Assembly (NCBI RefSeq): GCF_023516455.1
Contig: NZ_JAMGBA010000001.1
Coordinates: 62,001-126,000 of the forward strand
Length of the DNA stretch: 64,000 nt
Origin: Sphingomonas caseinilytica
Lineage (GTDB): Bacteria; Pseudomonadota; Alphaproteobacteria; Sphingomonadales; Sphingomonadaceae
Direction: 5' to 3'
The notes under the pieces are model-generated. The model was given only the letters and a program-made list of their open reading frames with translations. It searched no databases and was not told the origin of the DNA. Numbering within the stretch: position 1 is the first letter of the stretch; every line of letters begins with the position of its first letter. The position numbers and the translations under genes are program-made. Shown here piece after piece: positions 26,982 through 29,309 of the stretch.

Positions 26982-27027
26982 GGTCGATTTGTAACTTCAG
27001 AATTGCCTATGCGCCAGCACGCGCGAA

Positions 27028-27471
27028 TTAGACCGCATCTTCAAGGTTTGCAGGCCCAAAGCCGTGTGGGATTAGGGTCGAGATACTGTGCCTTTCGACA
27101 GTCGCGCCATCGCCTGACGAACATATGATTTCGATGTCACGGGCGGAGAGGCAATATGCTTCGTAGATCGCCTGACGGCAGCCACCACAGGGCGTGCACA
27201 CAATTGCGCCAGCCAAGCTGTCCGCCGAGCCGTCGCCGCCGGCAACCGCGATCCGCGCAACTTTGGCGAGCCCAAAGGCGAGATGGGCAGCGGAAAGCGC
27301 ACTTTGCTCCGCGCAGACGCCTAGGCGGTAGCAGGCGTTCTCGACATTGACGCCGGTGGCCACTTCCCCGTCGACACTCTCGATCGCGCAGCCGACCGAA
27401 AATCCCGAGTAAGGCGCATAGGCCTTCAATGCGGCTTGGCGGGCGGCGGCGATCAACTGTTCCTCGTTCAT
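27028..27471 (-). CDS. cdd: Cytidine deaminase, homotetrameric type
   Basis: A 147-residue zinc enzyme converting cytidine and deoxycytidine to uridine forms. The catalytic CAE motif (GVCAEQSAL) and the PCGGC zinc motif (CTPCGGCRQAI) are present; three cysteines as ligands mark the short tetrameric class. APYSGFSVGCAIE and NVENACYRLGVC also match. The ATG at 27471 (MNEEQLIAAAR) was chosen; a TTG eight codons upstream is possible. It belongs to the local salvage gene set. Confidence 0.92.
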   Translation of the reverse strand: MNEEQLIAAARQAALKAYAPYSGFSVGCAIESVDGEVATGVNVENACYRLGVCAEQSALSAAHLAFGLAKVARIAVAGGDGSADSLAGAIVCTPCGGCRQAIYEAYCLSARDIEIICSSGDGATVERHSISTLIPHGFGPANLEDAV

Positions 27472-27527
27472 GGATTTGACTTTAAGCGACAGCAAAGGCT
27501 CGAAACAAGGAATTGAGGAGTTCGGTG

Positions 27528-29309
27528 TTGCTTAAACTTCGTCATTCCCGCGAAAGCGGGAACCTAGGCCGGCATTTCTGGGTCCCCGCTTTCGCGGGGA
27601 TGACGATATTGGCGGGGTGCGCGACCACATCGCGCCAATCTGCTGAGCCGCAAGGGCCGGTCGAAGTGCAGATCCTCGCCATCAACGACTTCCACGGCAA
27701 TCTGGAGCCGCCGAAACTGACGGTTCCTGCCGCGGACGGCGCGGTGCCGGCCGGTGGTGTCGCCTATCTCGCGAGCGCTTTGAAGCAGCTTCGGACCGCC
27801 AACAGCGTGACGGTAGCCGCCGGCGACCTGATCGGCGCCACGCCGATCAGCTCGGCGCTGTTCCTGGACGAGCCCTCGATCAAGGCGCTGAGCATGGCCG
27901 GGCTGGAGCTGGCGTCCGTCGGCAACCATGAGTTCGACAAGGGTGCGGCCGAGCTGTTGAGGATGCAGAAGGGCGGCTGCGAGAAATTTACCAACCGCAA
28001 GCCATGTGCGGTCGAACCATTTGCAGGGGCAGGCTTCGGCTACCTCGCGGCCAATGTGCAGCGCGCTGACGGCACGACGCTTTTGCCAGGGACGGCCATC
28101 AAGGAAGTGGGCGGCCTCAAGATCGGCTTCATCGGCATGACCTTGAAGGAAACGTCGACGCTGGTGAGCCCGTCGGGCGTTGCTGGCCTCACCTTTGCCG
28201 ACGAAGTCGCCACCGCCAATTCGCTGATTCCGGGGCTGAAGGCCGCGGGCGCAAACTCGATTGTGCTGCTGATCCACCAGGGCGCGTCCATCACCGGGCG
28301 CTATGACGATCCGGCTTGCCCGGGTCTTGCCGGCGACATCATGCCGATCATGGCCAGGCTGGATCCGGCGATCCAGCTCGTAGTCTCAGGCCACACGCAC
28401 AATGCCTACATCTGCCGCGTGCCAGTGCCAGGGGGCGGGAGCCGCCTGCTTACCAGCGCCGGTCGCTATGGTACGCTGGTCACCGATATCCGGCTGACAT
28501 TCGACCGGCCGGGCGGCTCGCTAACCGGTGACAAGGGCGAGTTCGTGATCGTTCAAGGCGAAGCGATCCAGAGTGCGCGGCTTACAGCGCCGCTCGTGCA
28601 ATCCCACAAGGTTTACCCGGCTGATCCCGAGGTTGCTTCGCTGGTAGCCCGCTATCGCGAAGCCGCAGCCGGCGCTGCCAACCGGCCGATCGGGCGCCTC
28701 GGGGGCAGTTTGCTTAAAGGGCTCGACAATACGGAGAGCCAGGCAGCCGGCTTCATTGCGGACGGCCAGCTCTTCGTCGCTAGCGATCCGGCGCGCGGCA
28801 ATGCCGACTTCGGGCTAATGAACAATGGCGGCGCGCGGACCGACCTGATGCCGGAAGCGGACGGTACGGTTCGCTTCGGCCAGATCTTCGCGATGCAGCC
28901 CTTCGCCAACAATGTCGTGACGAAGAGCTATACGGGAGCGGAGATCAAGGCGGTTCTCGAACAGCAATTCTCGAGCGGCACGAACAGCGCCGCACGACCC
29001 AATTTGCTGACACCGTCGAACAATTTCCATTTCAGCTACGACCGGTCACGGCACGCTGGCCAGCGGATCGTCGCGATGACACTGAATGGAAAGCCGGTCG
29101 ACCCGGCCAAGACATATCGGGTGACGATCAACAATTTCCTGGCGTCCGGCGGCGACAATTTCACGTTGCTTGCGGTAGGGCGTGACCCGGTCGATGGCGG
29201 CCTCGATCTCGATGCGACGGAAGCCTATCTCGCGACCAACCCGGCGGCGCCGGCCTTGGGCCGGCTTACCGATTTGACGCCGAAGGATTGGGTGCCGCCC
29301 GCTTCCTAA
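27528..29309 (+). CDS. 5'-nucleotidase / metallophosphatase lipoprotein with repeat-derived signal peptide
   Basis: 593 residues. An N-terminal metallophosphatase domain (ILAINDFHGNLEPP, GDLIGATPISS, SVGNHEFDKG, VVSGHTHN) and a C-terminal 5'-nucleotidase domain (NADFGLMNNGGARTDL, FGQIFAMQPF, TYRVTINNFLASGGDNF) give the UshA/YfkN layout. The enzyme probably dephosphorylates external nucleotides. The TTG start at 27528 has GAGGAG 7 nt upstream. The signal peptide runs to lipobox LAGC with Cys31. Residues 5-26 are encoded by a palindromic repeat, which supplies the hydrophobic core FWVPAFAGM. The other possible start, ATG 27600, would leave no signal peptide. It overlaps the amn stop by 4 bp. 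Confidence 0.85.
   Translation: MLKLRHSRESGNLGRHFWVPAFAGMTILAGCATTSRQSAEPQGPVEVQILAINDFHGNLEPPKLTVPAADGAVPAGGVAYLASALKQLRTANSVTVAAGDLIGATPISSALFLDEPSIKALSMAGLELASVGNHEFDKGAAELLRMQKGGCEKFTNRKPCAVEPFAGAGFGYLAANVQRADGTTLLPGTAIKEVGGLKIGFIGMTLKETSTLVSPSGVAGLTFADEVATANSLIPGLKAAGANSIVLLIHQGASITGRYDDPACPGLAGDIMPIMARLDPAIQLVVSGHTHNAYICRVPVPGGGSRLLTSAGRYGTLVTDIRLTFDRPGGSLTGDKGEFVIVQGEAIQSARLTAPLVQSHKVYPADPEVASLVARYREAAAGAANRPIGRLGGSLLKGLDNTESQAAGFIADGQLFVASDPARGNADFGLMNNGGARTDLMPEADGTVRFGQIFAMQPFANNVVTKSYTGAEIKAVLEQQFSSGTNSAARPNLLTPSNNFHFSYDRSRHAGQRIVAMTLNGKPVDPAKTYRVTINNFLASGGDNFTLLAVGRDPVDGGLDLDATEAYLATNPAAPALGRLTDLTPKDWVPPAS
27540..27605. repeat. Dispersed palindromic repeat inside a coding sequence
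   Basis: The ends are CGTCATTCCCGCG (from 27540) and CGCGGGGATGACG (to 27605). The internal stems are TTCCCGC-GAAA-GCGGGAA and CCCCGC-TTTC-GCGGGG. The layout is the same as at 6241-6324. At 66 bp it equals 22 codons, is in frame and free of stops, and is translated as part of the lipoprotein signal peptide. Confidence 0.85.

Follow-up and report, generated by a model that had tools for sequence, protein, structure and literature searches.

How a dispersed palindromic repeat comes to lie in the predicted signal peptide of a conserved enzyme, and what it may do there, is the question raised by a putative 5'-nucleotidase lipoprotein gene in a 64,000-nucleotide stretch of the Sphingomonas caseinilytica genome (assembly GCF_023516455.1, contig NZ_JAMGBA010000001.1, positions 62,001 to 126,000 of the forward strand), hereafter called the window, whose numbering is used throughout (Table 1). 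The open reading frame runs without a stop to 29309 and matches the Pfam families PF00149 and PF02872. A first-pass annotation of the same DNA had described a repeat of 66 bp, or 22 codons, in frame between TTG 27528 and the lipobox LAGC, and both its coordinates (27540-27605) and its reading are correct: TTG 27528 and the codons CTT AAA CTT are followed by the 22 repeat codons, from CGT 27540 through ACG 27605, and these directly by ATA TTG GCG GGG TGC, which encode ILAGC. Outside the repeat, the signal comprises only the four codons before it (TTG 27528 included) and ILAG after it. The peptide that had been read from the repeat, RHSRESGN...WVPAFAGMT, was likewise borne out (RHSRESGNLGRHFWVPAFAGMT), and the element is a dispersed one. 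We consider it probable that a REP dimer replaced the start-proximal part of the signal peptide, that it is translated from an upstream start and supplies the basic n-region and most of the h-region, and that the native cysteine is lipidated.

Table 1. Features of the repeat-bearing 5'-nucleotidase locus, in window positions.
Feature	Position	Strand	Basis
GAGGAG, Shine-Dalgarno-like motif	27515..27520	+	sequence reading; 4 nt before GTG 27525, 7 nt before TTG 27528
5'-nucleotidase lipoprotein gene (predicted)	27528..29309	+	open frame, PF00149 and PF02872; start inferred from motif spacing and lipoprotein rule
CGTC-1-type REP head-to-head dimer, 66 bp, 22 codons, RHSRESGNLGRHFWVPAFAGMT	27540..27605	.	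genome copies, family description (PMC3733652), hairpin
Uncharged stretch FWVPAFAGMTILAG, presumed h-region	27576..27617	+	translation and hydrophobicity; all but ILAG repeat-derived
Lipobox LAGC, Cys codon 27618-27620	27609..27620	+	equivalent lipobox position in the orthologues read

REP sequences of the CGTC-1 family, as described in the main text of Di Nocera et al. (2013, PMC3733652), have a CGTC tag, an 8-bp stem starting with AT, a 4-base loop and a CCA-like tail, and occur mostly as head-to-head dimers. According to the same text they are mostly intergenic, lie near the 3' ends of ORFs and are commonest in alphaproteobacteria, some being found inside ORFs, truB included; they are equated with dRS3 in Neisseria and RPE-6 in R. 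conorii, no dedicated transposase is known for them, and RAYT is not required. The window element fits the description of such a dimer. Its outer tags are CGTC (27540-27543) and GACG (27602-27605), and two head-to-head units with stems and loops of the CGTC-1 kind can be made out by eye (ATTCCCGC-GAAA-GCGGGAAC and GTCCCCGC-TTTC-GCGGGGAT), with imperfect outermost stem pairs and the tail CTA, not CCA. In its own genome, 39 matches on the two strands to a 141-base query merged into 17 full-length copies, the window copy included, and 6 arm-only stretches, and only 17 of 121 copies sampled from six genomes lie in coding sequence, in agreement with a family of many dispersed copies placed mostly outside it. 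The region 27500-27630 is predicted to fold at -66.2 kcal/mol (z = -5.9, with 0 of 200 shuffles as good), forming a very stable hairpin that begins about 10 nt past the start codon. At the peptide level, a set of 397 genomes from 96 genera of the bacterial family contained matches to the repeat in 108 genomes and 53 genera (E up to 0.01), and relatives of it occur in the records of many phyla, at no fewer than 71 loci. Rfam gave only sub-threshold matches over 27000-28500. A Y1 (RAYT-type) transposase was considered as the mover and set aside: of the genus's 71 genomes, 3 have a PF01797 match, and none was found in this one. The likeness to the RPE elements of Rickettsia that the first-pass annotation had drawn holds through the equation of CGTC-1 with RPE-6, the element itself being better described as a CGTC-1 dimer.

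A lipoprotein signal has a basic n-region, an uncharged hydrophobic run and a lipobox with its cysteine at about residue 15 to 35, as a PROSITE-type rule has it. GTG 27525 and TTG 27528 are both possible starts and agree with the rule, the cysteine falling at residue 32 or 31, respectively, and from either of them a basic n-region is followed by the 14-residue uncharged run FWVPAFAGMTILAG and then by the lipobox. TTG 27513 also opens the frame and just misses the 35-residue limit, with the cysteine at residue 36. The TTG start that had been proposed is plausible behind GAGGAG, as is GTG 27525, and one of these two is the most plausible start. ATG 27600, which lies within the repeat and had been named as the start that would overturn an export role, gives no match to the rule, the cysteine being residue 7 with no charged n-region before it. 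A simple codon-usage gene caller placed the start of the window gene after the lipobox, and starts after the repeat were also called in L052, L242 and L362, so the caller gives no backing to upstream starts; in the window gene its late start conflicts with the conserved lipobox and is therefore taken as a weakness of the caller. The earlier claim that the repeat provides the hydrophobic core stands in part: on the most plausible reading it would supply FWVPAFAGMT of the run, while ILAG is native and the run is weaker than in relatives (mean hydrophobicity 1.53 vs 2.84 and 2.32 in the two nearest). The start codon, export and lipidation of this protein are predictions drawn from such features of the sequence.

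The 5'-nucleotidase has a match in 53 of 71 genomes of the genus, that in G042 being confined to the repeat stretch, and 30 nucleotidase loci, the window's own included, were read. All 29 others display what the first-pass annotation had proposed to look for in relatives, a short, ordinary lipoprotein-type N-terminus without the insertion. The lipobox was found in 29 of 29 loci anchored by script, again with the window's own among them, and the thirtieth, L026, shows a lipobox on reading. By eye, the three closest orthologues (L010, L011 and L012) keep their start and signal peptide intact and have a different repeat, GTCATTGCG, just before them, and L024 has a repeat remnant upstream of the nucleotidase start; as these repeats occupy the same intergenic spot, the spot has been hit repeatedly and looks like a recurrent landing site for other or out-of-frame repeats. 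The upstream neighbour of the window gene is an ORF on the opposite strand, so that the insertion sits between divergent genes. The mature 5'-nucleotidase is under purifying selection, with a dN/dS of 0.10 over 547 codons at an identity of 0.81 to the closest orthologue. The insertion itself was seen in one genome only, and retention across species is thus evidenced by the SH3 gene described below and not by the nucleotidase gene.

Other genes carry the element at the corresponding place. In this genome, the right-arm peptide is also found within the predicted signal peptides of an SH3-domain protein (PF06347) and of CcmH (PF03918), and a CcmH of another genus (L093, named by eye) carries the repeat in its signal peptide. 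Further predicted cases, named by Pfam, are an M23 peptidase lipoprotein (L116), CopB (L126) and an efflux-type outer-membrane lipoprotein from a Burkholderiales MAG (L129). The L126 copy has long open frames on both strands, of which the CopB frame alone was checked, and in L129 a second stretch after the lipobox (SPSPRPSPKGEG) resembles another dispersed repeat family. A first overlap scan, run on loci chosen by peptide, picked out 4 repeat stretches among 74 (L108, L116, L081 and L086), of which L108 and L116 are used here. Long frames such as those at L089, L099, L109 and L121 were discounted, since GC-rich DNA probably gave rise to them by chance. The native part of the core is ILAG in the window gene and MIGMAG in L116, the two genes in which the repeat would give most of the core. 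The repeat may do no more than lengthen the n-region in L093, L129 and L264, since a native hydrophobic run comes after it there. Possible alternative starts are the repeat's own ATG in L264 and a loop ATG in L242.

The SH3 gene has a match in 67 of 71 genomes and was read at 66 loci (30 + 36), that is, in all matching genomes but G055, where the match lies only in the repeat part. The repeat is present in the signal peptide at 8 of these loci and absent from 58. In all eight, a start before the repeat overlaps or abuts an upstream stop (TGATG, TAGTG or TAGGTG) and opens a stop-free frame to the mature domain, with element lengths of 68, 71, 74, 77 and 88 and the left arm in two frames; in G000 and G009, the called upstream gene ends at this stop/start junction. 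The junctions were picked by eye and then checked for frame, and the junction pattern is matched at only 11 of 22 ordinary SH3 loci. Placing the starts by any stop nearby was abandoned: with a TGA inside the repeat's own ATGAC, such a choice carries no meaning. On a tree of the mature SH3 domain, the repeat label needs 5 changes, at least 3 of them forced by well-supported branches, with gains and losses not told apart, and G047, G054, G036 and G056 make up one repeat-bearing group (support 90/65). For ccmH, which has a match in 68 genomes, 30 loci were read; 2 of them carry the repeat, and in each a GTG overlaps the preceding gene's TGA. A separate observation concerns the SH3 gene of G009 (L201), in which the right arm reads WVLAFAGMT: the proline of the hydrophobic run has given way to leucine, the kind of change that improvement towards a signal core would be expected to bring.

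A base rate was obtained from 121 copies in six genomes, taken among the matches listed (G000, 17; G009, 21; G036, 24; G217, 20; G306, 18; G266, 21). They were found by DNA matching to avoid selection by peptide, and were classed by the codon-usage gene caller and by eye, shorter arm-only matches being left out. Outside this set stand one G306 copy (L325), which lies before an ordinary start, three G217 copies (L095, L115 and L118), which overlap no called gene, and the G036 SH3 copy L362, found by protein search. Signal peptides hold 6 of the 121 copies (the window copy, L051 and L052; L108 and L264; L242), with none among the 39 copies of G306 and G266. Seven others lie in frame in the interior of cytosolic-type genes, in the manner of RPE elements: a formyltransferase (L271), truB (L278, L285 and L318), an ABC ATPase (L284, sufC-like by eye), a biotin carboxylase type (L299) and a mutL-like gene (L294, by eye). 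Three genomes from two genera have the truB copy at nearly the same place, about codons 154-181, and the main text of Di Nocera et al. describes insertions in the truB of two other species (PMC3733652). Four copies are C-terminal (L039, at 1855-1923, L306, L316 and L340), and in L306 and L316 the protein ends in the third frame of the right arm, with FPLSRE and then a stop. The remaining 104 were called outside coding sequence, L338 being uncertain; its candidacy as a coding copy was ambiguous and it was left uncounted, and L343 was rejected as an in-gene copy on account of a stop between repeat and gene.

The copies in signal peptides and those in gene interiors are read in different frames. 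The right arm appears as W(V)PA(F)AGMT in all 6 signal-peptide copies vs 1 of 7 interior copies, the other interiors being GSRFRGNDE-like (Fisher two-sided p = 0.0047; 0.015 without L264; 0.048 by gene family; copies from related genomes are not independent). The chance of 6 of 13 N-terminal or interior copies lying in signal peptides would be 2e-8 to 1e-6, on the rough assumption that signal peptides make up 1.5 to 3% of coding sequence and with copies treated as independent though the genomes are related. In 63 genes the called start falls between 12 nt before and 60 nt after the end of a sampled copy; the frame stays open across the repeat in 18 of these, 3 being signal-peptide genes, and the lengths of 50 non-CDS copies are spread 19, 19 and 12 over the three classes modulo 3.

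These observations bear unequally on several other accounts of the locus. The repeat could be an untranslated 5' element, with translation starting in or after it, for example at ATG 27600. The main text of Di Nocera et al. suggests that many REPs in N-terminal parts of ORFs may be extragenic because translation may start downstream (PMC3733652), the codon-usage caller also picked later starts, and many sampled copies just precede an ordinary start. Nevertheless, a protein begun at ATG 27600 would have its cysteine at residue 7 and no charged n-region, and in the SH3 gene the frame is kept from the upstream junction in 8 of 8 loci, although the elements have five lengths and the left arm is read in two frames. 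The junction and frame evidence speaks against an untranslated element in the SH3 gene and ccmH, and for the window gene we regard one as unlikely. Still less likely, in our judgement, is that the insertion broke the signal peptide and left a cytosolic allele or a dying gene. A single genome, a weak core and a non-ATG start are what such an allele might present, whereas the long intact frame and the low dN/dS over 547 codons point the other way, with the proviso that a recent insertion would leave this ratio unmarked.

The repeat might also be a neutral passenger that the n-region tolerates, export being left to native residues alone. This view is plausible for L093, L129 and L264, which have a native hydrophobic run behind the repeat; for the window gene we find it very improbable, the native core amounting to ILAG only there and to MIGMAG only in L116. 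In the repeat-bearing SH3 genes, too, the native remainder is short and begins without charge, whereas most ordinary orthologues have a charged start and a core of some 15-17 residues. The least credible account is that the RNA hairpin matters, by tuning translation or transcript stability, and that the peptide is incidental. The great stability of the hairpin and its closeness to the start codon lend themselves to such a role, and REPs are often discussed as RNA elements (PMC3733652, main text), but the kept frame and the hydrophobic right-arm frame in signal peptides would be left unexplained.

If the repeat is instead translated as part of the signal, as we favour, a CGTC-1 REP dimer would have landed near the nucleotidase start and taken the place of the start-proximal part of the signal peptide, an order of insertion and loss of native codons that we infer. 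Translation would begin upstream of the repeat and read through it; the left arm and loop would give the basic n-region, the right arm would give the uncharged, hydrophobic WVPAFAGMT, which joined to the native ILAG would form the h-region, and the native lipobox cysteine would be processed and lipidated. REPs lie near ORF ends, and where genes abut, as at ccmH and the SH3 gene, the end of one ORF would be the first codons of the next. All that a signal peptide requires is a basic beginning, a hydrophobic stretch and a site for cleavage; the palindrome could give the first two when its right arm is in the hydrophobic frame. With such placement and such lax needs, frame-keeping insertions with a hydrophobic right arm would survive at these sites; insertions in other frames or in cytosolic N-termini would presumably be lost, and interior survivors would be mostly those in the hydrophilic frame. 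On balance, we also lean towards the wider view that CGTC-1 dimers have served repeatedly as raw material from which signal peptides arise, selection retaining the hydrophobic frame where the protein is exported and the hydrophilic one where it is soluble, with several independent domestications, one of them spanning four species.

Related systems have been described. The CGTC-1 REPs of Di Nocera et al. resemble the window element in tag, short stems, 4-base loops, dimer form and placement; their main text regards many N-terminal copies as probably untranslated and names no signal peptide (PMC3733652), whereas in-frame signal-peptide copies are found here. Additional file 3 of that paper lists intragenic REP peptides, and single signal-peptide cases could be among them. 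The RPE of Rickettsia are, like the window repeat, palindromic repeats in frame within protein-coding genes, but the segments they encode are described in the main texts as solvent-exposed (PMC3767692, PMC10969869), whereas here the same kind of arm stands in the hydrophobic frame in signal peptides. The RU-2/YAPL element also lies in a predicted signal peptide, and differs in its length of 168 bp, its enterobacterial hosts and its confinement mainly to one gene of unknown function, with no multi-family recurrence in the texts consulted (Delihas 2007, PMC2759123; PMC2229807). The first-pass suggestion that use as an export signal would be a distinct outcome is thus tempered, one repeat-derived predicted signal peptide having already been published, and it gains in that the predicted use recurs in other genes and species. 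In the literature searched, mostly the main texts of open-access papers, one REP family used recurrently in several conserved exported proteins was not found, and the term 'signal peptide' is absent from the main text of PMC10969869 and PMC12306157.

Signal peptides diverge fast and their origins are hard to trace, and a recognisable repeat makes the birth of one visible and roughly datable. The case shows a route by which selfish DNA inside genes may become useful. There are consequences for annotation, too: N-termini derived from REPs are under suspicion of misannotation, and trimming them would strip the export signal from real lipoproteins and periplasmic proteins.
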